This document shows positions 5,724 to 64,000 of a stretch of 64,000 nt of DNA, piece by piece (positions within the stretch are counted from its first letter, which is position 1; each line of letters opens with the position of its first letter). The notes under the pieces were generated by a model, which made no database searches, was not told the origin of the DNA, and saw only the letters and a list, made by a program, of their open reading frames with translations. A program made the position numbers and the translations under genes. The DNA comes from a virus, in IMG/VR virus record IMGVR_UViG_3300030333_001969, positions 1-64,000 of that record; one strand, given 5' to 3'.

Positions 5724-8700
5724 AGTTTTATCTCCGTTGTTGTGACTGTATCTGTTCCTGAACCTATTGTTGATATATGTCCTATTGTAGTATTCCACCC
5801 CGATAATGTTCCACCCGGAGTTGATACTTGGTATTTAAGAGAAGTTTCCTTCAATAAGACATCTTCCATTTCATAATGAATCTTAATAGTTTCTCCTGCA
5901 TTCTTAGTAAATAGGGTTCCAAAGCCAGTTTTTTGCTCCACCCCTAGTTCTGATAGTCTCTCAGCGATTGTCTTATTAAATGTTCCCACAGTTACAGTAG
6001 TTACATTAGACATTACATTATCAATCTCAAACACAGTAAACTCTTCATTTTTAATGTCATGCGTTTCAAAGGTTAATGTTACCCTATCTCCGGGCTTCAT
6101 CATTTCATAACCAGTTCTATCCATTTTAATTTGTATCTTTTTTGCTTTTTGTTTATGTGCAGTTAATGTCTTTTCTGCTTTAATTCTTGCTTCTGAAACG
6201 CTTGTAATATTTGGGTCAATTACTTTAACAGTTTTTGTTTTTCCTTTAGTAACAGGTATTTCTGCTTCAGCCTTAACACTATCTCCAATAACAACTACTC
6301 TTGTTGCTTTATCAAACATATTTTCATTCTTTTCTATTTCTAACACAGTTCCTGATTTATATGAAATGTCAAACTTTCTTTTACTATCATAATCATAGGC
6401 ATCTTTAATTCTCATCTCTCCGGGAGAATTTTGAACAAACTGATATTCTAATCCTTTCTTATTAGCCAAGAAATTTATTGCTCCGTAAACATCTTGTTCT
6501 GTAAATCTTGAATTTACTATTAATGGTTTTCTATTATAGACTGTTATTTCATCATTGGCTACAGGTTTGTATGCAACATCAGCCCCTCCACTATCTAATT
6601 CTGCTAATGTTATTGTATTAGTAGAAGTAGATGCTACCTCACCTATAAACTTCCCATCTTGATTGTAAATATCATCACCAGCAGAAACATTAATTGCATT
6701 GTTTTCTAATGTTATTGTCGTTCCTGTAGTATTTTGAGAAACAATATTAGTAGTATATACTAAGCCTTTTTCTGATGTATCTACATTAATATTGTTTTCT
6801 TCTAAAATGTCTTCCATTGCTTTTTCTGCATCTGTTCCGACATTAAATGTGGTTCCAATATATGCTCTTTGAGCCTTTCTCATCTTTGGTTTAACGTGAG
6901 TAGTTATATTAAATACTTCACCAAAGGATACAATTCCTTTACCGTTTAACTCACCATCATATGTTATTCTTACATTGGTGGTACTTGATTCTATACTTAA
7001 GTCTTTAACTTCTCCTGTATCTCCGTCTGTAATATAAAACTCCCCACCTGTAAATGTATTACTATTAAATGGTGGAGTGGCTCTAACGTGTGCAACGGTT
7101 CTTCTATCTGGTTTACCATCTATTATTGAATCTACATCTAATAATAAATACATAGCAAATAAACCTTCTTCATATATTAAATCATCATTAGTTGCAGCAG
7201 AAGTAGTATATGTATCTGCACTACTGCCAAATCCAACCACGCTATCAGTTAGTTCTTCATCACCAGTAATATAATTTTGAGTGAGATAATCATATTTTAA
7301 TCCAGTATCAAACATCTTATTTAGGTCAAAGTAATCAGGAGTATCTTTAAATGTAGTTTCTGAAATCCTCATTAATCTGAATGTTTTACCATGATTAGCA
7401 GTATTTAATGTAGTATCTAATTTAATAGTATGAACTGCATAAGTGCTGCTATCTGTTACTCCATGATGTATTATTTTTCCAATATATACTGGTTCTCCCT
7501 TTAACCTATTAGTAGTAGTAGTTCCATCAAAAGCATCTTTATCTGGTAATGTTAAATTAGTTCCTACTAATTTGTCTGATACTAAATAATATCCTTTTAA
7601 GTTTGGCACATAGTCTATCCACGAATTAATACAATTTTCATCTAACGTTATTGAAAAACTAGTCGCGTTAAGTGTATCTGAATCAAAATCTATCTTTGGT
7701 TTAAATAATGCCTGTGCTTGGAATACATCTCCCTTCTTTTTAAGACCCCAATCGTTTTCTGTATGTTTCCAACTTCTAGAATCATAGTTAGAAGAATCGC
7801 TTCTAACACTATCTTCCCCTAAGAAATGTGAACGTGTCTTAGTTCCAAGATATGTCATTTCTTGTCCATCAGGAGGTTTTTGATTAATCCTTAAAACTCT
7901 ACTATGTTGGTCTATCTCATCCCATGCACCACTAGTGCTAATATATGTTCCAAGACTATTAGACCATGTGTTTATGCAACCAGCATCAATATCAATTACT
8001 GCACTTGTTGGACGTGTAAATGCTTTATTTACGTCTTTTTGTTTAGTTACCTTTTTCATGTCTTTAAATAGTACGTTACAACTGGTGTATAAATGCGTAT
8101 TGTTATGTGTTTTATACTGCGTTCCATCTGAGTTGCTACCAAAGGTTTGTCTTGTAATAGCATTTACTATCCTAGAAGGATGATAATATGTTTCGCTGCT
8201 ATTGCCTGTCCAATCCTTTGCTTGATGGAATCCTGAGATTTGTCCTCTATTGTCATCCGCATTATAGTTTGTTCCAGCAACCCCGTCTATACATTCACCA
8301 ATTAAAGGTATCCATAAGTCATGTCCATTTAATTTATTAGTTGAAGAATTAACTCCTACCAATAAACGATGTCTAAGATAGTCTCGATAAACCATAGGAA
8401 CTGACATATACATATTTGGCATATATAATCCATTATTACCCACCTCATCTAATCCCCATTTTCCTTCAGGTGGGGCTAAAGTATTGAATAATTTTGCTCT
8501 TACAATGTATATTGTATCTCCGTTTGCATCTGTTTCATCATCATAACTAAGCATCTTAAGGTCTTTAGTCGTATCTGTATTGTGAACAGTCAAAGAAGAA
8601 TCATTTGTAATTGTTTTATGAGCAACCGCTAGTGCTGTACCATCTTTGCCTCTATAAATTATATCTCCTGCTGATAAAGATACATTGCCGCTTAATGTTA

Positions 8701-11700
8701 GCCAACCACTATTTATACTACCAAAGTTGTCATAGTTTACTGTTAAATTATGATAAAGCACTCTACTTCTCGGCCACTTTAAATGAGAAATAGTTTCTAA
8801 TGCATTTGTCTTTGGTAATGATTCATAGTCTACAGGATTGAAATGCCAATCAAATGTTGCTTCTACTAACCTCATAACACCAAATCTTTTCATACTAGAT
8901 GGACTAATAGAAGCAGATTTAATTGTCATGTTATCATAATCTATGTCTCTTTGTTCCATTATATTTGAATCACCTGTATATTTTTCATGAGAAACAGAAT
9001 CTCCCTTATTTCCGTCTTCTTCTAACATTAATCCAAAAGAAGTAAATTCATGAGAATCTGCTGCAAAAGCAATGTTATTGTGTCTTAATTTAGAATCTAT
9101 GAACATATCTCCTAATCCCAAAATATCATATGTTTTTGTGCGATAATCAATATTTTCTAGTTCTGTCCAATTACCTGCATATGAACCGCAATTAGCCGGA
9201 TTGCTTGAATCATATTCTGTTATCCATTCTGTTGGGGCTTTTCTAACAGAAGAACCACCAGTTAACCCCATATGAGAACCAGTCCATATATTAGACTCTC
9301 TAAGTGGTTTTAGTGAATGTGTTAAATCGCCCATTTCTGCGTTTGTTCCTCCACCAAAAGCGGTGCTTGCAGTTATTGCTTTAATTGCCCCTGATTCATC
9401 TATTTTATATGCAGAACAGTATCCATGAATGTTCTGTTTGTTCTTATTATTATTATAAACGCTGGTATGTGTTTCATTCACAGTTCCTTTTTTAAATTTA
9501 TTTAGTCCGGTGTATCTATATATTGTATCACCAAAGTAATAATTAGAATCTAATTCTGAAGATAGTCTGTGCAAGAACCCACCCGCAGGTAAATTAGTGT
9601 TTACTAAATAAATGCCCGCCATGCCTGTAGTTCCAGCACTACCTAATAATGTATCACTACTATTTGTTTCTATACTTCCTAGCACTAATGGGAAAGTGGG
9701 TGCTAGACTTATAACAGAGTTAGCCTCGTCCTTTGTATTCATCGAAACAACATTGTAAGGAGAGTATCCTGATGTTGTTTGCATCGGTTTTAAACTAACA
9801 CCTGCTTCTGTTTCATGTGCAAGTTTAAATGCAAAAGAAGAATCTTTTCCTCTTTCTATTGCCTTAATACTATTTATGTCATATCCTAAACTTTCATCTT
9901 CTGAATAACTACCTGTGGCTGAACTATATATTAAGTCTGTCTTTGTATTTGATGCCCCGTTATATAAATTTTTAATACCTGAGTTAAAAGATATTCCATT
10001 GTTTCCTAAATGTGATAGTTCTGTTGGGTGTGCAGATGCTTGAACATTCGCCCCTGCTGCTTTAAGTGCAGATAGATATGTTGAAGTTTTACCTAATCTT
10101 ACAAATTTAAGTTGTTTATTTCCACTAGTTGGATTAGTTTTATTGTTATGAGTGAATACTATTACAGTAGTGCCACTATTATCAGTTGCAGTAGATACCT
10201 CTCCCATAAATCTATAGTCACTACCTCCAGCATAATGGAATACTAAGTCATATTTATTCAAAGCCTGTAATACATCAGAAGTGTCTGTTATAGTAACTCC
10301 ATTAGTTTGAATTGAAACAAGATTATATTGTCCGTCTAGTGGGTCATTAAAATCTAACATAGGGGGCAATGAAGAATATACCATATCAGAAGTTCTATTT
10401 AAGTTTTTATTTACAGAATTATTTAATAGTGTTGATATGTTATCTCTTCCACTAACTGTATATATCATATTACCATGTTCATTTTTAGTAGAAATATCTT
10501 CAACAGTTCCTTGAAATACTGTGTCTTCTATTGAGTAGTTTCCTTCCATATAATATAAGAAAGAAATATTATTGGAAGGGACGTAAAACTTTTTATTAGG
10601 GTTTTGTAGTTTTATATATTTGTTAACTGCGTCACCATAGTCTATTAATACATTATGCCCATAGAATTGTTTATTCAAGAAAACTAATTTATTATTATAT
10701 AAGGCGGTGTTTTCTTTACTTATGGTTTTACCATTAATTGTTAGTCTAGCAAGATTATTAGAACTATAGACTCCTTCGGTATCTATTGGAATAGAACCAG
10801 TTAATCCTCCATTCCATGCCCTTACAAATATTTTTTTCTTTGATATGTTAGGTAATGTTCCTACTGCTTCCCATGTATTTTTAGTAGGTAGTTTCTTTTT
10901 ATCTACTGTTATTTGTTGGGTTTTTAAATCAGTCAAGGGACTTGCAATTGCTGATATTCTATAATAAGTATTTTCTAACCTTACAATGTCTCCTGTTGAT
11001 AAAAATGAATCGTTTCTAGCATCAAACCCTTCTTCTATTTGTTGTAAAATAATATTTTGTCCAGAAGTTGTGTCTGTTGATGCAGTATATGGCAACTCAT
11101 GTTCAGATAAACTTCCTCTATGTAATGAAGTAGATATTTTTAAATCTGCATCTTCTTTCATTTTAAGATGTTTAACACCTGTTTCATCTATAGAAGTAAC
11201 AGTAGCAAATTGACTTATCCTGTTCTGTGGATTATTTACATTTGTAGGAGAAATTATGTTTGTTACGCCATTGTTTCTATCCTTGCTGTCTTTAAAATAT
11301 AAATACTTTCTTGGCCCTGATAAATCTCCATGAATTAATTTATAGGTTGTAGTAGGACTATAACTGGCGTGTGCGCTTGTTCTATCAGAAGCATTCCTAG
11401 AGAAATTTCTAAAGCAATTAACCCATTCAGATGGATTAGGAGTATATGTAGAATTTGTATCTTTATCTGTTGGTGCATCTAAAATATCAGTAGTAACTAA
11501 GTTATCTACTAATACACCGTGTTGATTTTTACTACCTAAATCAATAATAGTTGCACCATACTTTCTTTCTGTTTTAAATACTGCACTAGTAATAGTTCTA
11601 CCATAATAAATATATTCAGCAGTTCCTTGAGAATGAGTAAGATTAGTTCTCATATTATCTAAAACTATAGTATTGTTTGAATTGTCATGACTCGCAATAA

Positions 11701-38469: not shown

Positions 38470-39780
38470 TTATACATCCATCTTTGAGTTTTCTTCCAAC
38501 TTACTAATTGAATCAATATCAATGTCCCATTCATTCCAATTGAAATTAGTGTTGTCTTTGTGATTGTGATACTTCATTAACTTAAACAACTCATCCTTTC
38601 TTTGTTTAAACCATGACTCCTTTTTGTCTTGTTTTTTAATCTTTATGAGTTCTAATAATACTTTTGCATTTGGCCCCTTCATTCTAAAATGTGGCATACA
38701 GTTTGTTAATAACTTTTTAATATCTGAACCAGAATAAAAGTTTAATCTATTTACAGGTCTAGTGTCTTGAGGTGATTTTTGGTCTAAATGTAATCTTCCT
38801 ATACTTCCTAAGGATTTATACATTTCAGTCATAAATGCTTTTCCTCTTTCTCCTGTTGCAACTAATCCTACTCTTGGGTTATGATTTTTATCCATTGTAA
38901 TGTAACCATCAGAATCTATAAATGCTGCTGTATATGCCCATATATTCTTTTTAATTTCATCATTAAATTTATAATAAGCACCATTTACAGAAGTTATATT
39001 TTCTTCCTTAGCAAGTTTTGCAATTACAGCAGAAGAAGTTTTATCATACAAATTCTTGTCTAATGATTCGTGAATTTCTCTAGCAGAAATTCCGGGATTA
39101 TTACAAACTGATTTAACTATCTCGGCCTTCACCACCGCCTTAGTGCTTGGGTTTATAGAGGTTTCCTTTAAAATTGCCTTAAATTCTCTTTTGGCCTTTG
39201 TTGCCTTTTTCAAACTTTCGGCATATTCTTTCCCATAATATTTACCTTTCATATCTAGGTTTGCTTCCCAATTCTTACAAAGAGCATCAATAACATTTCG
39301 TCTAGTATCTTCATCATTAATTTTACTTAACTTAAGTAAATCAGTTTCACTACAGGTCATGGATTTTATAGGAGCCTTATACTTACTAATCCAATATATT
39401 GAATCAATACATTTATTTAAATAATCTGTATAGCCATCAATAACATTATCAATAGCATTAGTGAATTTTATTTTATTTTCTCCCTTTAATGTTCTTCGAT
39501 GCATTCTCATCTCTTTAATAACACTAGGTATATCATGTCCTTGAATTTTATATTCGTCTGGGTAAACATCTAACGACTTTTTAGCATCTGTTAGGTTCAT
39601 ATTAAATTCTTGAGCATAATCTTTTGCTATATCTTCATGACTTCTAATAGGCTTATCTGCTAACCAAGCCCTATTGAGTCCTTCGATTTCTTCTGTTAAT
39701 TTAGCCTTTTCATTAAGAAGCCTTGCTTCTTCTTCTAAATTTTTTGCTTGTTCTTTCTCTTCTTGTGACTGTAATACCAT
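38470..39780 (-). CDS. LAGLIDADG-type endonuclease-like protein
   Basis: 436 residues. WAYTAAFIDSDGYITMD at about 281-297 matches the LAGLIDADG signature (acidic residue followed by Gly after a helix), with a following beta region (RVGLVATGERGKAFMTEMYK) and FRMKGPNAKVLLELIKIKKQ as in single-motif homing endonucleases. Residues 215-270 (SVCNNPGISAREIHESLDKN) look like a winged helix. The N-terminal 200 residues are a helical region with Cys143. It is placed between terminase and portal, a common site for freestanding homing genes, yet it fits the operon without disrupting it (3-14 nt gaps). Either a homing gene or a recruited packaging nuclease is possible. Confidence 0.7.
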   Translation of the reverse strand: MVLQSQEEKEQAKNLEEEARLLNEKAKLTEEIEGLNRAWLADKPIRSHEDIAKDYAQEFNMNLTDAKKSLDVYPDEYKIQGHDIPSVIKEMRMHRRTLKGENKIKFTNAIDNVIDGYTDYLNKCIDSIYWISKYKAPIKSMTCSETDLLKLSKINDEDTRRNVIDALCKNWEANLDMKGKYYGKEYAESLKKATKAKREFKAILKETSINPSTKAVVKAEIVKSVCNNPGISAREIHESLDKNLYDKTSSAVIAKLAKEENITSVNGAYYKFNDEIKKNIWAYTAAFIDSDGYITMDKNHNPRVGLVATGERGKAFMTEMYKSLGSIGRLHLDQKSPQDTRPVNRLNFYSGSDIKKLLTNCMPHFRMKGPNAKVLLELIKIKKQDKKESWFKQRKDELFKLMKYHNHKDNTNFNWNEWDIDIDSISKLEENSKMDV

Positions 39781-58371: not shown

Positions 58372-58722
58372 AATATTCCTCCTTGTGTCGCCCGGTTTAA
58401 CTTATTTAACCATTAAAACTGAAAATTTGGCCCGTCATTTATTTGCCACTTGCGATTTTTATTTTAATGTTTTTATCCTATTCCCAGAATAAAAATAGTT
58501 TATTGTTTAAATTGAATGATAAAAAGGTATTAATCTCCTGTATCCCTTTACGCGACCCGCGATTTTTTAATAGTTAAATAATCACCTTTGAGTTTAGTGC
58601 GTTCACTCTATATGACCCATGTGCGCCTACTATTTAGATATATGACTTGACACAATTAACATTTTAAGCCTGTTTTAACTAAACAAATCATTAAAAGATT
58701 AAAGAAAAAAAATCGACCCAAA
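58372..58722. promoter_or_regulatory. AT-rich leader region of the late operon
   Basis: About 350 nt without a gene, very AT-rich. On the minus strand, TTAAATAA about 30 nt before ATG 58371 and ATTAAAATAAAAATCG further upstream are possible TATA elements for the long leftward transcript. Two similar motifs occur (plus strand TTGCGATTTTTATTTTAATG near 58450 and CCGCGATTTTTTAATAG near 58558), whose T-runs could act as terminators for rightward RNA. Nothing more specific was seen. Confidence 0.35.
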
Positions 58723-58771
58723 GCATATGGTCATGTAAAATACATAGACCCGTCAGGAAATTCTTCCAACA

Positions 58772-58852
58772 ACGATAGTCGTATTCAGCGTTCAATGGAG
58801 CATAGTAGTGATAACACTTACTATTAGTCTATTTCTCTGAATACGTCATCGT
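58772..58852. repeat. Hairpin before the first perfect palindrome
   Basis: ACGATAGTCGTATTCAG (58772-58788) pairs with CTGAATACGTCATCGT (58837-58852) with one bulge. The loop region contains a smaller stem (ATAGTA / TACTAT) around AACACTTACTA, similar to the ACACTTAGGC tip of other hairpins. Confidence 0.6.
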
Positions 58853-58866
58853 ATGTTTCCATCCTT

Positions 58867-59212
58867 CCATATGGTAAGGTTATAGGACATATAGTATCTG
58901 TTAACTTGCAGGGACGGGTAGAAAACTGTCTGGTAAATAGGAACTATACATAAGTATAAGCCTAAGCGTGTTTCGTAGTTTTACCAGCGTTGTTTTCTAC
59001 TTAGTGCCCTTGCAAGTTAACAGCACGGTGTCCATAAACCACCCGATTAATCTGGTATCCAACGTTTCACTTAAGTAAATGCTTTGTAGTTCGTTTGCAT
59101 CTCCAATAACGACAAAAACAGGGGCACTTAGGTTCTCGCTTAGGCGACCCCTTAATATGCCGTTATTGTTTATCATCCTCACTAACAAGCATTTACATTT
59201 ACAACCATATGG
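58867..59212. repeat. Hairpin-pair unit 1
   Basis: Bounded by two CCATATGG sites (346 nt). Left hairpin 58898-59023: CTGTTAACTTGCA pairs perfectly with TGCAAGTTAACAG, GTAGAAAAC with GTTTTCTAC, and CTGGTAAA with TTTACCAG; GCCTAAGCGT lies at the tip (58960-58969). Right hairpin 59075-59196: GTAAATGCTT pairs with AAGCATTTAC and CAATAACG with CGTTATTG; the tip holds CACTTAGG (59125) and CGCTTAGGCG (59138). The two tips carry the motif in opposite orientation. Confidence 0.75.
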
Positions 59213-59232
59213 TAGCCTGTGCTTTGCTAACA
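59204..59232 (+). repeat. Left inverted end of the four-gene cassette
   Basis: ACCATATGGTAG followed by GTGCTTTGCTAACA (59219-59232). The 14-bp GTGCTTTGCTAACA is the exact reverse complement of 60627-60640, and the palindrome is also repeated there, giving imperfect 27-29 bp inverted ends around 59252-60594. Confidence 0.75.
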
Positions 59233-59251
59233 GAATGCCCGATAACGGGAC

Positions 59252-59392
59252 TTACTTCATTGTTACGATTTTACAGCAATTACCCATTCTTACTCGTAAA
59301 TCGCCTAATTCCATTCCGCAGGTTTCACATATCTCTATCATCATTTTTACATCCATTAAACCAGCACCAATAGAAAGAGGAATTGCAATCAT
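59252..59392 (-). CDS. Very small Cys-containing protein
   Basis: 46 residues: MIAIPLSIGAGLMDVKMMIE, then ICETCGMELGDLRVRMGNCC. The CxxC...CC arrangement (C22, C25, C39, C40) suggests a small zinc ribbon. It follows the 85-residue gene after 24 nt within the same inverted-end cassette and on the same strand. There is no strong ribosome-binding site, so it is tentative. Confidence 0.45.
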   Translation of the reverse strand: MIAIPLSIGAGLMDVKMMIEICETCGMELGDLRVRMGNCCKIVTMK

Positions 59393-59416
59393 CACATGAT
59401 AAAGGGAGAGTATTTC

Positions 59417-59674
59417 TCATTCTCCCTCCTCCACAACATATAGACCAAGACTTATCATATCATCAAGCCATTGGTCTTGTTCCTTCAATGGCATTTGATG
59501 ATGTATTATATCACCAATAGATTGTATATAGTGTCTAAGAAGGTTACAATTCTTTTGCCCTTTCAACACTTCACAGAACTCTTGATGGGCGTGTAATAAA
59601 TCCCAATCAATATCTCCTTCATCTTCAACTAATGGGGTTTCATACCCACATTCACAGAAACCACTATGTTTCAT
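59417..59674 (-). CDS. Small zinc-finger-like protein
   Basis: 85 residues starting MKHSGFCECGYETPLVEDEG. C7-x-C9, H28/H30 and C34 could bind zinc (C2HC-like). A helical C-terminal part follows (LLRHYIQSIGDIIHHQMPLK) with an acidic end. ATGA overlap with the 239-residue gene places them in one transcript. A regulatory or DNA-binding role is likely, given the cassette setting, but unproven. Confidence 0.6.
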   Translation of the reverse strand: MKHSGFCECGYETPLVEDEGDIDWDLLHAHQEFCEVLKGQKNCNLLRHYIQSIGDIIHHQMPLKEQDQWLDDMISLGLYVVEEGE

Positions 59675-60390
59675 TCTTCATCCCCCATAACAAGGGCAGT
59701 TGTTTCTGGTGAGCATTGGTAGGTTGCTTCACTAATTATCTTAGTCTCACAATCAACAGTATGTGTTAATTCGCAAGCACTTAGTTCTGAAAGAACTGCT
59801 TCTACTGCCTCGCGTATTCTCATCATCTCAGCCAATGGCACTTGAACAACCTTTTCTTCTACTGCCTTTCTATTTGAAATCTTATCAACTTCATAGATAA
59901 TAGTAAAGATTAGCGAATAGGTGTATCCATAAGTTTCTAATTTAGCCGTCAAAAACACATTATCATCATATTCAATCTTTGCTTTACCATACCAATCTTG
60001 TTCACCATTAATGTCACCATCGAATATACCAAGATGTGGCCCTTGAACTCTCATCCAAGTGTCCATTCTCTTTGTTGTTTCAATTGAACCTATTGTGCCA
60101 TTAATACCGTAGTTCTTCAAACCCTCCAAAGCCAATTGTGCTTGACTATGGTAATCTAACTCCATAACTACTTGACCGTGACTATCGGTTATTGCATAAG
60201 TAGTGGTTGTATCTTCCTTCTCTTGGAAACCATATTTACTAGGCTGGCTTTCTGGATTAGTATAGTTATAACTGCTCGTTTGGGCTATGCCTCTATTATA
60301 CAGCATTCCTTGCACTTTTTGAGCATGGTTAGGAACATCGTCCATATCCGTGTCAAAGTATATCTCCATCTTTCTCTCATATATCGTCAT
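59671..60390 (-). CDS. Unknown protein of the cassette
   Basis: 239 residues; GGAGATGA lies upstream of ATG 60390 (MTIYERKMEIYFDTDMDDVP). A beta-rich alpha/beta sequence (TTYAITDSHGQVVMELDYHS, GYTYSLIFTIIYEVDKISNR), then a helix (LAEMMRIREAVEAVLSELSA) and a Cys/Thr-rich end. Higher GC and better ribosome-binding sites than the late operon suggest a different expression class. Not recognised. Confidence 0.6.
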   Translation of the reverse strand: MTIYERKMEIYFDTDMDDVPNHAQKVQGMLYNRGIAQTSSYNYTNPESQPSKYGFQEKEDTTTTYAITDSHGQVVMELDYHSQAQLALEGLKNYGINGTIGSIETTKRMDTWMRVQGPHLGIFDGDINGEQDWYGKAKIEYDDNVFLTAKLETYGYTYSLIFTIIYEVDKISNRKAVEEKVVQVPLAEMMRIREAVEAVLSELSACELTHTVDCETKIISEATYQCSPETTALVMGDEE

Positions 60391-60594
60391 TTACTCATCT
60401 CCTATTGCTTCAACGTAATCGGACAATGCTGATTGCATATCAGCCATTACTTCCTTTAGGTTGTCTCCAGATACTCGTAATTTGCTAATACATAGAACAA
60501 GGGCAGACCCTGATTTCATATGTTTAACTTCTAACACGTATTTTGGCTCAGTTATTGGTATTGTCTCATTATTCTCATTAATCATGTGAATCAT
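60391..60594 (-). CDS. Small protein, first gene of the cassette transcript
   Basis: 67 residues from ATG 60594 (MIHMINENNETIPITEPKYV); ATG 60585 is an alternative. The frame opens at 60648 within the palindrome, but the predicted TATA box (60611-60620) lies only about 20-25 nt before ATG 60594. So the mRNA is probably leaderless or nearly so, and the longer start is unlikely. The body is alpha/beta (ALVLCISKLRVSGDNLKEVM). Function unknown. Confidence 0.55.
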   Translation of the reverse strand: MIHMINENNETIPITEPKYVLEVKHMKSGSALVLCISKLRVSGDNLKEVMADMQSALSDYVEAIGDE

Positions 60595-60610
60595 TCTTAT
60601 CTTATTCTTA

Positions 60611-60653
60611 GAATATATCAGGTAAGTGTTAGCAAAGCACACTACCATATGGT
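60611..60653 (-). promoter_or_regulatory. Promoter copy 1 (palindrome, CTTTG box, TATA); also right inverted end
   Basis: Reading leftward: ACCATATGGT, then GTGCTTTGCTAACA, then ACCTGATATATTC. The spacing from palindrome to ATATAT matches three other sites here. It faces the four-gene cassette. TGTTAGCAAAGCAC (60627-60640) is also the partner of the left inverted end. Confidence 0.65.
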
Positions 60654-60669
60654 TTGCTTTGCGTTAAAC

Positions 60670-60693
60670 CGGAGAGGTGGAGAGGGGCGCAAA
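60670..60693. repeat. Left inverted repeat around the 179-residue gene
   Basis: CGGAGAGG (60670-60677) and GGGGCGCAAA (60684-60693) are exact reverse complements of CCTCTCCG (61286-61293) and TTTGCGCCCC (61269-61278) on the other side of the gene. The mRNA 5' and 3' ends could thus pair. The cassette ends also match: CTTTGCGTTAAAC (60657-60669) against CTTTGTGTTAAAC on the other side. Confidence 0.65.
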
Positions 60694-60699
60694 ACCCAC

Positions 60700-61239
60700 C
60701 TATTCCTCTTCATCGCCTCCGATGAAGGATACCACAGGATAACCGTTCTCATCATAAGAACCGTCCCAATGGTATTTCTTGGTCATATCTCCGTTTGCGT
60801 GTGCATTGTAAGCGGAATTGAGGAATAGTCTCTCTTTCTTCACGCCATCTGTTGCAAACACGGTAGCGTCATCGTCTAGGGTGTTGTAAAGCACACCACC
60901 GGACTTTCCGTGTGTTCTAGCGGTTGCGTAAACACATGGATAAACGGTATCACGAAGTGCGGTAAAAAGTGTCTCATTCAAGTAAAGGTCGAATGAGGAC
61001 TTGGTTGCGGTATCCATTAGAGACTTGCGCCCCTGTCCAATGGGCGAATTTGCCACATCGGTGAATACACCTACAATAGAGTTCCAATATCTCTTTCGGG
61101 TGCTTGGGTTAGCATCACCGAGAGCGAACATTGAACGCACAATCATTGCCAAATCGCTTTGGTCTGGATTAACTGCGAACCACTCTTCTAGGTCGGATTT
61201 CTTGGTTTCCCACTTGCTGTCATCTATTTCATTGCTCAT
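60700..61239 (-). CDS. HGKS-type cassette protein A (paralogue of 63401-63910)
   Basis: 179 residues from ATG 61239 (MSNEIDDSKWETKKSDLEEW), chosen because GGAGATGAT then has normal spacing; ATG 61248 is too close. The protein shares with the product at 63401-63910: an early W(E/D), the stretch DLAMIVRSMFALGDANPSTR (paralogue DVVTLAQMLITTGDNNASTR) followed by NSI, then THGKSGGVLY (KHGKSKGSPVY) and a late WDGS. No known enzyme motif was recognised; HGKS is not a full P-loop. The gene is bounded by inverted repeats and CCATATGG and has its own promoter copy. Good ribosome-binding site and codon choice suggest strong expression. Confidence 0.75.
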   Translation of the reverse strand: MSNEIDDSKWETKKSDLEEWFAVNPDQSDLAMIVRSMFALGDANPSTRKRYWNSIVGVFTDVANSPIGQGRKSLMDTATKSSFDLYLNETLFTALRDTVYPCVYATARTHGKSGGVLYNTLDDDATVFATDGVKKERLFLNSAYNAHANGDMTKKYHWDGSYDENGYPVVSFIGGDEEE

Positions 61240-61268
61240 CTTAATCATCTCCGAAAAGGTAAGATAGG

Positions 61269-61293
61269 TTTGCGCCCCTAAAATTCCTCTCCG
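61269..61293. repeat. Right inverted repeat around the 179-residue gene
   Basis: TTTGCGCCCC and CCTCTCCG, partners of the repeat at 60670-60693. They lie in the predicted 5' untranslated region of the gene. Confidence 0.65.
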
Positions 61294-61310
61294 TTCTTAT
61301 GATTCATTGT

Positions 61311-61354
61311 GAATATATGAGGTGTGTTTAACACAAAGTACCACACCATATGGT
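61311..61354 (-). promoter_or_regulatory. Promoter copy 2, for the 179-residue gene
   Basis: Reading leftward: ACCATATGGT, TACTTTGTGTTAAA, then ACCTCATATATTC. Same layout as copy 1 and copy 3. The start of transcription is expected near 61285-61290, giving a 5' leader of about 50 nt. Confidence 0.65.
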
Positions 61355-61365
61355 TTTACTTTGTG

Positions 61366-61745
61366 TAAAAAACCAGATAGGAGAGAATGCTTGGATTTAC
61401 ACTTAGGCTAATCTACCGTTATTCTAAGTCCAAGTCTCATATCTCTCCATTGGGGAGTGTGAGTGGGTTTTGTATTGTGCTTTCCTAAGGCACTCTCAGA
61501 CCCGAAACTGAGCAAATGAAGGTGGATGCTGGACTCTCTTTCGATTACCAGCAAAGACGCATGGGCGTTAGTTCTACATATCTTGAGTATACAGTCCTAA
61601 CCCGCGCTTACTCATTCTTACCCCGCTAAGGGCGTTGTCCTGCCTTTCCTTTCTAAGAACGACTCGGTGTCCCGCTAAGAACCAAGAATGATGCTTTACA
61701 CCCTAACGATGGTGTTATTCAGCCAATCCGTGCCAACCGCGCCGT
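61366..61745 (-). ncRNA. Candidate structured non-coding RNA
   Basis: Promoter copy 3 faces this gene-free stretch. The region holds several stems: GCCAAC/GTTGGC (61727-61744), CATTCTT/AAGAATG, GTGC/GCAC around TTTCCTAAG, GCTGG/CCAGC. It ends with a hairpin (GGAGAGA/TCTCTCC and CTTGGA/TCCAAG, 61380-61448), whose tip contains ACACTTAGGC, followed leftward by TTTTTT (61372-61367). A promoter, dense pairing and a terminator-like end suggest a transcript of about 380 nt. I could not match it to tRNA, tmRNA, RNase P or SRP RNA. Confidence 0.5.
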
Positions 61746-61767
61746 TGGCATTCTTATGTTTAAGGGT

Positions 61768-61811
61768 GAATATATCAGGTGCAATTGACACAAAGTATCA
61801 CACCATATGGT
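61768..61811 (-). promoter_or_regulatory. Promoter copy 3, facing the candidate RNA
   Basis: Reading leftward: ACCATATGGT, GATACTTTGTGTCAA, then ACCTGATATATTC. It is the same 44-nt layout as copy 2, but no protein gene follows. Confidence 0.6.
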
Positions 61812-62150
61812 AAGTTATTAGGTCATAGTGGATTGTAAGGCGGGTTTCTCCCTGTGGTAGCCACTATCCAACAAAGAGGCTAATTCCTAAGAATAGAGCC
61901 TAAGCGTACTCAAAGTTGGTGTGGCAGCCACGGTGGAGAAACTCCGCCTTAGAAGCCTACTGACCATAAACACTTATTCCCCATTTAATGGGGAGAAACA
62001 TTACATTAACATGAAATAATACAGATTTCGGTTGCTTAATACGCTAAGGCCGATTCAGGGCCACTTAGGTTCGGCTATGGCCTTTCCCTGAATTTAGCCT
62101 TACCGTATTAACCGCCTCAACTGTATATATTTCATTATACTACCATATGG
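61803..62150. repeat. Hairpin-pair unit 2
   Basis: 348 nt between palindromes. Left hairpin 61821-61965: GGTCA pairs with TGACC, and AAGGCGGGTTTCTCC with GGAGAAACTCCGCCTT (one extra T); GCCTAAGCGT is at 61898-61907. Right hairpin 62011-62135: ATGAAATAATACAG pairs with CTGTATATATTTCAT, GCTTAATACGCTAAGG with CCTTACCGTATTAA; CCACTTAGGT is at 62061-62070. Confidence 0.75.
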
Positions 62151-62459
62151 TTACTTAGTCTAGGAGTTAAGCATAACTCATGCAGCATAATAGGCTCCTA
62201 AGAGTCTAAGCCTAAGTGTTGATGCTGCTTGCGTTAGGCTTAACTCCAAGCAAGATAATCCCATATCGGGTTCTTTTGATTTGAGGTCTGTTTCAAACAG
62301 TTCAGATGCCAATCATAAACTTTTGCCAATGCAGTACCGCTTAGGCTGGGTCTTAAGACCCCCTTTAGGCTAGGAACGGATGTTCCTACCCGTCAAAAGA
62401 TTATGTTAGCATCATCACAACTCACCAGACCTTTATTTTATAATTAGCAAACCATATGG
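62143..62459. repeat. Hairpin-pair unit 3
   Basis: 317 nt. Left hairpin 62163-62247: GGAGTTAAGC pairs perfectly with GCTTAACTCC, GCAGCAT with ATGCTGC; GCCTAAGTGT is at 62210-62219. Right structure about 62284-62432: AGGTCTG pairs with CAGACCT; it contains CGCTTAGGC (62338-62346) and a perfect 14-bp palindrome GGGTCTTAAGACCC (62348-62361). Confidence 0.7.
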
Positions 62460-62779
62460 TTGTTTAGGTGATGCTAGGTTTAGTGTCTTCCTGTAGTCAC
62501 GGATTCAATTCAAAAAATTGAAGCCTAAGTGTATCTGTTACTGCGGGAGACACTAAACCAATGCCACCATAATAACCAGATTTAGAATCCGGTTCAAACA
62601 ATAAAGGAGTCTAACATAAAGGTTTGGCCTTTTCCAGATACAGCAAAATGACTCTTCGCTTAGGCTTCAAATTGAGATTTGTCCGTCATTTATCTGTATC
62701 CTCCTTGGCCTGCTAAACTTGCAATAGTTGTTTGCAAGTTAACAAACCATTAAGAAGACTCCTTTAACTTACCATATGG
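62452..62779. repeat. Hairpin-pair unit 4
   Basis: 328 nt. Left hairpin 62477-62559: GGTTTAGTGTCT pairs perfectly with AGACACTAAACC, TTCAATT with AATTGAA; GCCTAAGTGT is at 62523-62532. Right hairpin 62603-62765: AAAGGAGTCT pairs with AGACTCCTTT, GATACAG with CTGTATC; CGCTTAGGC is at 62657-62665. An extra stem AACTTGCAA/TTGCAAGTT (62717-62740) shares TTGCAAGTTAACA with unit 1. Confidence 0.75.
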
Positions 62780-63077
62780 TTTGATAAAGTGGTCTGCGTT
62801 TAGACGCGAATAAAGGGTGCGTAATCTTTAGTTTTGTATTAAAACAAGAGTTCACCTAAGTGAAAATCTAAATGTCTCGCCAGTTTTAATTCATAACTAA
62901 AGAGTACGTCACGCTTTAGTTCGCGTCTAAACGCGTGACCCATATCATTCCCGATAAATAGGGTATATATTCCACAAGCGATTGCGAAGGAGATAAACCT
63001 ATGAACACTTAGGCTCTTGTTATGACAAGCCCTATGTTCATCTCCTCCACTATCGCAGTTCCATTATTACCATATGG
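62772..63077. repeat. Hairpin-pair unit 5
   Basis: 306 nt. Left hairpin 62796-62934 is the strongest: GCGTTTAGACGCGAA pairs with TTCGCGTCTAAACGC, TCTTTAGTT with AACTAAAGA, and AAAAC with GTTTT, about 50 bp in all; CACCTAAGTG is at 62853-62862. Right hairpin 62978-63056: GCGAT pairs with ATCGC, GGAGAT with ATCTCC; ACACTTAGGC is at 63005-63014. Confidence 0.75.
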
Positions 63078-63304
63078 TAGGGCATAAAATATTAATTGAA
63101 GCATTAATCGCTTCTGTTAAACGAAAAGTTTCGGAAGCCGTCCCTTGTGAATCGAAAAAGGGTTCACCCGTGACCCCTCCGGCATTTTTCTTATTTCTCG
63201 TTTTTCTAAAACGTGAGAATAACGTTAACCAACCTCGTAGAAAACGGCTTGTTTTTCCTTCTCGACTCTTCAGACCCCTGAAAAACGCTATCATTACCAT
63301 ATGG
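63070..63304. repeat. Last short interval, weaker structure
   Basis: Between the last two palindromes. It contains several smaller inverted repeats (GAAGC/GCTTC, AAGCCGT/ACGGCTT, CGTTTT/AAAACG) but I found no CTTAGG motif. It looks like a degenerate or different unit. Two weak opposing frames here (63067-63564 minus, 63074-63394 plus) look spurious. Confidence 0.5.
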
Positions 63305-63335
63305 TTCTGCTTTGCACGGAACCTCTTATATATCC
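63296..63335 (+). promoter_or_regulatory. Promoter copy 4, for the rightward gene
   Basis: ACCATATGGT, TGCTTTGCACGG, ACCTCTTATATATCC on the plus strand: the same layout as the three leftward copies, at nearly the same spacing (40 instead of 43-44 nt). It faces the 169-residue gene. The expected start near 63358 leaves a leader of about 40 nt. Confidence 0.65.
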
Positions 63336-63353
63336 GATTACTCTCCCAAGAAT

Positions 63354-63366
63354 GCCCCCGAAACTT
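63354..63366. repeat. Left inverted repeat around the 169-residue gene
   Basis: GCCCCCGAAACTT pairs with AAGTTTCGGGGTGC (63929-63942) beyond the stop codon, with one bulged T. It also forms a local CCCAAG/CTTGGG stem (63345-63350, 63364-63369) in the 5' leader. As with the 179-residue gene, the mRNA ends could pair. Confidence 0.6.
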
Positions 63367-63400
63367 GGGCACGAAAGAAAATACACATAGGTGATAAAAG

Positions 63401-63910
63401 ATGGAAGATATTGAGTGGGATTCAGTAAAGATAAAAGTAAGCACTATGCTTGAAGGTAACGCAGAAGTTGGAGACATTCCAGAAGACGTTGTTACTCTTG
63501 CACAGATGCTAATAACGACAGGCGACAATAACGCTTCTACGCGTGATTCGCTGACTAACAGCATTAAGGATATGCTAAAGCCATACGCTGGTTATCCTTG
63601 GAAGAGAGGGAATCAGGGCATTCTACCTGCTGCGGCTCGCGCAGTTGTAGATTCTGCTACTGATAACATCCGAGAGGCAGCAAGAGAGTTCTTTAACTCT
63701 ACTTCGCAGTATTCTCAGCCCCTTCTCCGAAAGCACGGTAAGAGCAAGGGTTCCCCTGTTTACGCTGATGCTGACGAGTATGCAAACGAACTTGCTTCAA
63801 AGGCACGAAAGGCTGCAACACAACTGTTCAAGGACGGTGAGTGGGACGGCTCTCTATCGGGTCTTGCTGCTTGTGCGTCTTATGACGACATAACCACGGA
63901 GGATGAGTAA
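63401..63910 (+). CDS. HGKS-type cassette protein B (paralogue of 60700-61239)
   Basis: 169 residues; AGGTGAT lies 7 nt before ATG 63401 (MEDIEWDSVKIKVSTMLEGN). It is the only convincing plus-strand gene. It shares with the 179-residue protein the segment GDNNASTRDSLTNSI, KHGKSKGSPVY near 115 and EWDGS near 153, and the acidic end. It is predicted mostly helical (ATDNIREAAREFFNSTSQYS). It points away from its paralogue, with the gene-free hairpin array between them. GC content is higher than in the late operon. Function unknown; the array setting suggests it may bind or regulate these elements. Confidence 0.75.
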   Translation: MEDIEWDSVKIKVSTMLEGNAEVGDIPEDVVTLAQMLITTGDNNASTRDSLTNSIKDMLKPYAGYPWKRGNQGILPAAARAVVDSATDNIREAAREFFNSTSQYSQPLLRKHGKSKGSPVYADADEYANELASKARKAATQLFKDGEWDGSLSGLAACASYDDITTEDE

Positions 63911-63928
63911 TTCTTCCTTCGTTAACCT

Positions 63929-63990
63929 AAGTTTCGGGGTGCAATCTACCGAGGGGGAATAGGGTCTTTAATGGCCTTATTCCCTCTCAA
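63929..63990 (+). terminator. Inverted repeat partner and terminator-like hairpin after the rightward gene
   Basis: AAGTTTCGGGGTGC (63929-63942) is the partner of 63354-63366. GAGGGGGAATA (63951-63961) then pairs with TATTCCCTCTC (63978-63988), followed by pyrimidine-rich CAACTTTCTTC. CCTAAG at 63926-63931 resembles the tip motif, so another unit may begin here and continue past the window. Confidence 0.45.
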
Positions 63991-64000
63991 CTTTCTTCAG

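Follow-up and report, generated by a model that had tools for sequence, protein, structure and literature searches.

The locus analysed here raises the question of which kind of genetic element consists of a row of units each bounded by one and the same 8-letter palindrome, CCATATGG. The window, that is, the whole 64,000-nucleotide stretch of viral DNA under analysis, contains ten perfect copies where 0.7 are expected (100 shuffles; mean 0.70, maximum 4), and these shuffle counts rule out a chance origin of the cluster. In agreement with the first-pass annotation, the ten copies are packed into 4.5 kb and neighbouring intervals have one palindrome in common: they are located at 58867-58874, 59205-59212, 60645-60652, 61346-61353, 61803-61810, 62143-62150, 62452-62459, 62772-62779, 63070-63077 and 63297-63304. 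The full record of 65,760 bases contains an eleventh copy (record 64031-64038, 31 bp beyond the end of the window), and all eleven lie inside 5.2 kb with zero elsewhere. The start previously assigned to the array, 58723, is borne out as a site, which is kept at the matching place in two relatives (G001 and G004), but not as a perfect copy: it is a degenerate junction, AGCATATGGT (58722-58731), with one mismatch.

Clusters of CCATATGG were found in about 35 IMG/VR virus contigs with 4-23 copies each, usually as one cluster per genome, while three contigs with only 2-4 palindromes (G018, G029 and G031) were treated as chance. Each well-covered genome exhibits a single compact array whose boundary motifs are not dispersed over many ORFs, and in none of the genomes examined does more than one stray palindrome lie outside it; the spacing of the palindromes ranges from about 90 to 1615 bp, with unrelated content between copies. 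Among related contigs the palindrome is thus clustered and not frequent elsewhere, and all close relatives with the same genes keep the array, so that neither observation named in the first-pass annotation as refuting its reading was made. A protein-led search in which the palindrome was not used returned 14 loci, one of them 36% identical, and all 14 have palindromes; since this search was blind to the palindrome, the sequence of CCATATGG must itself be conserved. No cellular or proviral copies emerged when 84,980 species genomes were scanned by protein and by pattern; the pattern scan yielded 8 matches, which is about chance level, none with a comparable array.

Two kinds of cassettes occupy the intervals. 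The first kind comprises transcription units, and the intervals proposed to hold genes with inverted ends were indeed recovered at 59205-60652, 60645-61353 and 63297-64038. The first of these is a three-gene cassette on the minus strand (ORFs 60391-60648, 59671-60390, encoding 239 aa, and 59417-59674, all on the minus strand) with a CTTTG box at both ends. The second (minus strand) carries the gene of HGKS1, a 182-aa protein of a novel helical family (60700-61248, minus strand), and the third (plus strand; 63297-64000 in the window and on to record position 64038) carries that of its 169-aa paralogue HGKS2 (63401-63910, plus strand). The interval suspected to harbour an RNA (61346-61810, minus strand) contains a member of the described manA family (RF01745; 61519-61750, minus strand), which is matched over its full length with 46.9 bits and an E-value of 5.5e-10, the gathering threshold of 55.2 not being reached. 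The manA RNA was found in eight genomes, in each case at full length, with 32-50 bits and E-values from 5.5e-10 to 2e-4, all below that threshold; besides manA, no other Rfam match of weight was obtained in the array cassettes.

The second kind consists of non-coding pairs of long hairpins. As had been proposed, hairpin pairs fill the intervals 58867-59212 and 61803-63077, and all non-gene intervals of the window fold better than shuffled sequences (z-scores from -4 to -15). Two long hairpins each are found at 58867-59212 (z = -9.1), 61803-62150 (z = -12.1), 62452-62779 (z = -8.4) and 62772-63077 (z = -15.4; 17 double changes preserving Watson-Crick pairing relative to the homologue in G002). 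A further hairpin cassette at 62143-62459 (z = -8.8) has an 80% identical homologue that lies on the opposite side of the genes in G001, and a shorter interval at 63070-63304 (z = -4.1) is conserved in G001, G002 and G004.

Comparison of homologous stems reveals 165 double changes that preserve Watson-Crick pairing, against about 26 expected by our own estimate, which assumes independent changes. Single changes to GT and AC are about equally frequent (108 and 113), as are GT and AC mismatches in the stems (94 and 99), and the hairpin cassettes exhibit a strand symmetry above that of shuffled sequences, while an rRNA control is asymmetric. The non-coding cassettes are hence maintained as DNA hairpins and not as RNA, because their stems covary with a bias neither towards G-U pairs nor towards one strand. 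Kissing loops (CCTAAGYG/CRCTTAGG) are also present in the window, and this motif is clade-specific.

The palindrome itself turns out to be composed of ATAT between two hairpin feet (ACC and GGT); where end hairpins flank it, a junction reads hairpin-ACC-ATAT-GGT-hairpin. When the first 5 stem bases at cassette ends were considered, they were found again as reverse complement at 97 of 201 ends, a count that dropped to 18 after swapping between ends. An inward-facing CTTTG box marks either end of gene and RNA cassettes and frequently occupies the tip of a hairpin with a stem that begins at the GG of the palindrome: of 94 cassettes of at least 440 bp, 78 have a CTTTG or ATTTG box at each end, and CTTTG occurs at 149 of the 188 ends (CAAAG at 4). 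Most non-coding cassettes are devoid of the CTTTG end motif, and no terminal repeat common to the non-coding cassettes was identified. A TATA-like box is frequently located next to the CTTTG end hairpin of a transcription-unit cassette, so that the cassette promoters look archaeal. In the window, this arrangement is seen on the minus strand for end hairpin GGTAGTGTGCTTTGCTAACACTTACC (60621-60646) followed by TGATATATTC (60611-60620), for GGTGTGGTACTTTGTGTTAAACACACC (61321-61347) followed by TCATATATTC (61311-61320) and for GGTGTGATACTTTGTGTCAATTGCACC (61778-61804) followed again by TGATATATTC (61768-61777), and on the plus strand for GGTTCTGCTTTGCACGGAACC (63303-63323) followed by TCTTATATATCC (63324-63335); further end hairpins on the plus strand are GGTTTGCTTTGCGTTAAACC (60651-60670) and GGTTTTACTTTGTGTAAAAAACC (61352-61374). 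The hairpin feet around ATAT, the CTTTG boxes and promoters at the ends of gene cassettes and the manA identity of the RNA had all gone unrecognised in the first-pass annotation.

The cassettes of the array are shuffled. Viruses which share 90-96% identity outside the array differ in the order and orientation of their cassettes as well as by gains and losses, and the ends of the rearranged blocks lie within 6 bp of a palindrome in 18 of 22 cases for one pair (G008/G020) and in 11 of 13 for another (V077/L089), where 6-8% would be expected by chance. The units of rearrangement are the units between palindromes: order, orientation, gain and loss differ with ends at CCATATGG. Cassettes occur in both orientations with an identical palindrome at each unit's two ends, and single cassettes are flipped in place (G008 8564-8721; the HGKS1 cassette in L100/L098). 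Some exchanges took place inside cassettes, between their two hairpins (G001/G002 and G016/G008). Assembly noise is disfavoured, since near-identical contigs (G003/G004 and L088/L100) have matching cassette order. The earlier suggestion of a recombination-driven cassette system is thus strongly supported by independent virus pairs. As the rearrangements are seen between viruses that are 4-10% diverged, and not within a population, their rate may be low.

The array sits between two opposing gene blocks, at their divergence point. We found PolB, a clamp loader, an ATP ligase, two divergent gene blocks and no integrase, as in the ICTV profiles of Magrovirales; judged by gene content, the carrier is a tailed archaeal virus with magrovirus-like genes, and the array carriers constitute a family of viruses whose hosts are probably marine archaea. 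No named magrovirus emerged from the phage collection. No link to these viruses was found in the Rep-Arvir rolling-circle paper. A minimum of the GC skew at or beside the array was registered in 9 of 9 genomes tested, although this skew is confounded with gene orientation and transcription direction; the previously voiced idea of an origin fits the minimum with that same reservation.

Based on the evidence collected so far, we consider it rather probable that the locus represents an array of recombining cassettes, situated where the two gene blocks of a tailed archaeal virus with magrovirus-like genes diverge. The machinery and the benefit of the shuffling we can only infer. Given the symmetry of the junction, any two junctions could undergo exchange with deletion, insertion or inversion of a cassette, and a perfect junction would remain. 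A dedicated factor not recognisable by sequence may bind the hairpin-flanked site and exchange strands during replication or repair, and the two HGKS paralogues would be the first candidates, either as enzyme subunits or as site-binding proteins. In this view, the array would lie at or beside the replication origin, where exposed single strands would allow the hairpins to form. It is thus tempting to speculate, with considerable reserve, that a new class of site-specific recombination exists in which a symmetric hairpin-ATAT-hairpin site and a recombinase of a kind not yet described, perhaps the HGKS pair, keep an invertible and growable array at the replication origin of archaeal viruses.

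HGKS proteins were found in nearly all array records and in none of the GenBank phage records. Their families yielded no match in Pfam, PHROG, PDB sequences or PDB folds, a structure search matched one unnamed BFVD structure, and their conserved residues do not form a set characteristic of any known recombinase. Tyrosine recombinases (PF00589) were detected in 0 of 20 records, compared with 14 of 14 control rings, serine recombinases (PF00239) in 0 of 20 and Y1 (HUH) transposases (PF01797) in 0 of 23, while Holliday resolvases of the Hjc family are absent from the 20-23 array records searched; hence, the enzyme is hypothetical.

These negative results are in line with a passive shuffling in which regulatory repeats, namely an end hairpin with promoter or terminator, are exchanged by ordinary recombination (annealing or template switching), with both orientations arising via the palindrome and no dedicated recombinase. 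Such a process, which we regard as somewhat doubtful, would also accord with the end hairpins that abut TATA-like boxes at promoter ends, and with T4-like phages, in which promoter early stem-loops (PeSLs) between units are reported to mediate modular shuffling, and the haloarchaeal tailed virus HGTV-1, for which a PeSL-like motif with a similar role has been proposed (PMC3950731, PMC4503421). However, the shared core comprises merely 8-10 bp, most non-coding cassettes do not carry the CTTTG motif, and 42 kb of HGTV-1 contain no CCATATGG cluster, so that HGTV-1 does not represent the same system. Moreover, the core sequence is constant even where HGKS2 has diverged to 36% identity, a constancy that argues for a factor acting in trans.

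Alternatively, the hairpin field might be a replication element (an origin or single-strand initiation sites) with rearrangement arising secondarily when forks stall and switch templates at hairpins and palindromes. This view, rather unlikely in our estimation, is compatible with the other readings and draws on the location of the skew minimum and of the gene divergence in or next to the array, on the covarying DNA hairpins, and on clustered paired stem changes that resemble quasi-palindrome correction. Transcription alone may cause the skew, however, promoter-bearing gene cassettes belong to the array, array content and length vary widely among relatives, and in more distant viruses (G005, G010, G011, G013 and G017) the arrays contain hardly any non-coding hairpin cassettes or lack them altogether.

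Flanking 8-bp direct repeats, CTTTG boxes in inverted orientation at the two ends, and units that move and flip could likewise suggest MITE-like transposable units inserted into CCATATGG with duplication of the 8-bp target, but the near-absence of palindromes outside the arrays, of a Y1 transposase family and of a common terminal repeat in non-coding cassettes makes this improbable. That every interval encodes a structured RNA, with palindromes as processing or promoter sites, is very improbable despite the manA-family cassette and the strong folding, as the wobble, strand-symmetry and covariation tests rule it out for the hairpin cassettes and no further Rfam match of weight emerged.

The preferred recombining cassette array combines a fixed junction for recombination with cassette ends that carry a DNA-hairpin code and with an orphan family of proteins, and it does so in viruses that, according to the ICTV profiles, have no integrase or transposase. 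A dedicated enzyme, if it exists, would represent a mechanism additional to the tyrosine, serine, HUH and DDE classes; otherwise, the array would illustrate with unusual clarity how units are shuffled at hairpin junctions. The array also suggests where the replication origin of these uncultured viruses might be sought.

Among known systems, the array is neither CRISPR, integron, shufflon, IS200/605 nor iteron array; for CRISPR, integrons and iterons the first-pass annotation had already stated so. Iteron origins consist of close direct repeats with one length and spacing, in contrast to the variable spacing seen here. Like integrons (IntI/attC), the array lines up single-unit cassettes that are exchanged at short sites, and it has folded DNA ends; integrons, however, have one attC per cassette in uniform orientation, whereas the array is devoid of an integrase and has palindromic sites at both unit ends, both orientations and cassettes with their own promoters. 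Neighbouring segments invert between short sites in shufflons (Rci) and serine-invertase arrays as well, but here permutation, gain and loss also occur, with neither alternative gene ends nor a tyrosine or serine recombinase found. Subterminal hairpins and small non-autonomous units are shared with IS200/IS605, REP/BIME and MITEs, from which the array differs by the lack of a Y1 transposase and of scattered copies, and by end boxes that are inverted rather than of the same strand sense. The nearest analogue is the PeSL shuffling of T4, where a composite of promoter and stem-loop likewise marks unit boundaries, as do the end hairpins beside TATA-like boxes here. PeSL motifs are reported to precede individual ORFs across a large genome region, whereas the array is compact, has a fixed palindromic core common to neighbours, and features non-coding DNA-hairpin cassettes and inversions.

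The window contains ten copies of the 8-bp palindrome CCATATGG, where dinucleotide shuffles give 0.7, all within 58867-63304; the 65,760-base virus record holds an eleventh at 64031 and none elsewhere. The following base is T at every copy in the record and the preceding base is A at most, and the symmetrised consensus of 251 sites from many viruses reads YACWA-CCATATGG-TWGTR. Four IMG/VR relatives carrying HGKS1, a gene of a novel helical protein family occupying its own cassette, were found at 75-92% identity, and 12-13 palindromes surround the gene in all four. With two pattern scans and one protein scan the total rises to ~35 contigs. In the protein scan, for which the palindrome did not serve as query, palindromes were present at 14 of 14 loci, down to 36% identity. 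Each of the nine records that were analysed in full or almost in full possesses one array and at most one stray palindrome outside it, and two scans of cellular genomes found no array.

Gene and RNA cassettes exhibit an inward CTTTG box at both ends, replaced by ATTTG in one clade. Among cassettes of ≥440 bp, 78 of 94 have the box at both ends, with CTTTG at 149 and CAAAG at 4 of the 188 ends (background 7% per 30 bases); the flanking bases are mostly A..T or G..C. The reverse complement of the first five bases, counted from the palindrome's GG, recurs after the box at 97 of 201 ends, as compared with 18 in a control with prefixes interchanged among the ends. Many ends are thus hairpins of the form GGTnnn-CTTTG-nnnACC and, because the stem prefix recurs in this manner, the palindrome represents two hairpin feet around ATAT. 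A 31-bp interval between two palindromes at the related locus L085 contains a single CTTTG hairpin, and where the end is a promoter end, the end hairpin is often immediately followed by a TATA-like box. The box is absent from 16 of 20 cassettes of 200-300 bp and from 85 of 93 shorter ones, and these box-less cassettes are mainly hairpin pairs.

The hairpin cassettes are structured as DNA and not as RNA, the exception being cassette 61346-61810. When G-U pairing is disallowed in folding, single mismatches within helices comprise 94 GT, 99 AC and 476 others, and no strand preference per cassette was found among them. Between homologous cassettes, single changes yield 108 GT and 113 AC, and 165 pairs changed on both sides remain Watson-Crick (about 26 expected for independent changes, by our own estimate) while 85 do not. 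With RNA parameters used for all folds, the two strands differ less in energy for cassettes (0.110) than for shuffles (0.156), and the E. coli rRNA control is strand-asymmetric with the same sign in 14 of 14 windows. Cassette 61346-61810 contains a manA-family RNA (61519-61750, minus strand), which is matched at full length, as in seven relatives (L006, L008, L012, L020, L030, L031 and L077), in all cases below the curated threshold. The published description of manA RNAs drew on marine metagenomes and cyanophages (PMC2864571); here, archaeal-type viruses carry a divergent member in its own palindrome-bounded cassette.

Comparison of G008 and G020, two related contigs with 93-95% identical flanks, reveals that G008 8564-8721 is inverted in place, that other cassettes have changed place, some of them also orientation, and that several are absent. 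V077 and L089 (90-96% identical) differ by another permutation, in which several blocks are inverted and the HGKS1 cassette is moved. Inner block ends lie ≤6 bp from a palindrome in both genomes in 18 of 22 and 11 of 13 cases, respectively (expected 6-8%). For more distant pairs, block ends coincide with palindromes in 6 of 9 (G012/G019), 4 of 8 (G000/G001) and 2 of 6 cases (L100/L098), this weaker agreement being probably due to alignments ending early. The HGKS1 cassette is inverted between L100 and L098, and the homologue of window cassette 62143-62459 is located on the opposite side of the genes in G001. Exchange also takes place within a cassette, between its two hairpins, in G001/G002 and in G016 and the otherwise distant G008, where a 62-base stretch ending at a palindrome is 97% identical. 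Just outside the array, 2.0 kb (L008 731-2771, L020 1-2041) are 95% identical, with array genes at ~70%; this stretch appears to be a recent exchange between lineages.

We propose that a dedicated, unrecognised factor would act on the symmetric, hairpin-flanked site. The main rival is passive exchange like that at the promoter early stem-loops (PeSL) of T4-like phages; since the site sequence stays fixed across very diverged viruses, a dedicated factor is somewhat more likely. Assembly error as the source of the rearrangements is unlikely because nearly identical contigs agree on cassette order. Tyrosine recombinase, serine resolvase, Y1 transposase and Hjc families were not found in 20-23 records, while control genomes matched. 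HGKS genes are present in nearly every array record, usually as two or three paralogues; the predicted model is confident (pLDDT 87.7) and all-helical, and no PDB relative was found for it. A third paralogue, in which H-x-KSGGG (HGRSGGG in G017) replaces the usual HGKS/HGRT, lies just outside the array in G005, G010, G011, G015 and G017 (e.g., L018 8361-8846). The array is adjoined by a gene (record 64662-65300, ~L005 7663-8301, plus strand; kept in G001 and G004) whose product has an HTH-like start (WTKADVKKLVRLWKKGTKIKEIHKEFPNRTAGSVTNKIY), making it a candidate junction binder; the G001 copy has no Pfam match. Several relatives carry tRNA genes a few kb or less from the array (L006 3668-3751, L008 2686-2769, L030 832-915, L020 1956-2039, L077 11121-11569); a search of the window gave none.

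The virus has a terminase, a portal and a major head protein of tailed-virus types. One relative encodes PolB, a clamp-loader-like AAA protein, an ERCC4 nuclease, ATP-dependent ligases and a Cas4/PD-(D/E)XK nuclease, and has two gene blocks, both directed away from the array. In gene content, rather than by phylogeny, the virus agrees with the ICTV description of the magroviruses of Poseidoniales archaea, whose profiles report no integrase. In 9 of 9 genomes tested, cumulative GC skew reaches its minimum inside the array or next to it, with G010 counted by wrapping round the contig ends and G016 having a local minimum. This hints at a replication origin but is suggestive rather than proof, because transcription direction switches at the same place. 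Many otherwise unrelated proteins encoded on the minus strand at 33488-58297 share the N-terminal peptide M-x-W-x-x-[IVL]-[LIV]-K (e.g., MSWEDILK, MKWDTILK, MTWFELIK, MNWHKVVK), which may be a common targeting tag, for example for packaging into the head. A 436-aa protein encoded beside the large terminase (38470-39780, minus strand) includes a stretch resembling LAGLIDADG (AYTAAFIDSDGYI), which may be a homing-endonuclease domain.

Within the literature library searched, no paper with the motif CCATATGG was found, and the one magrovirus survey it covered makes no reference to palindromes, repeats or recombinases. The array departs from each of the known kinds considered in a defining feature. 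Shuffling at promoter stem-loops is nevertheless an established idea for T4-like phages and has been proposed in the case of the haloarchaeal tailed virus HGTV-1 (PMC3950731, PMC4503421).
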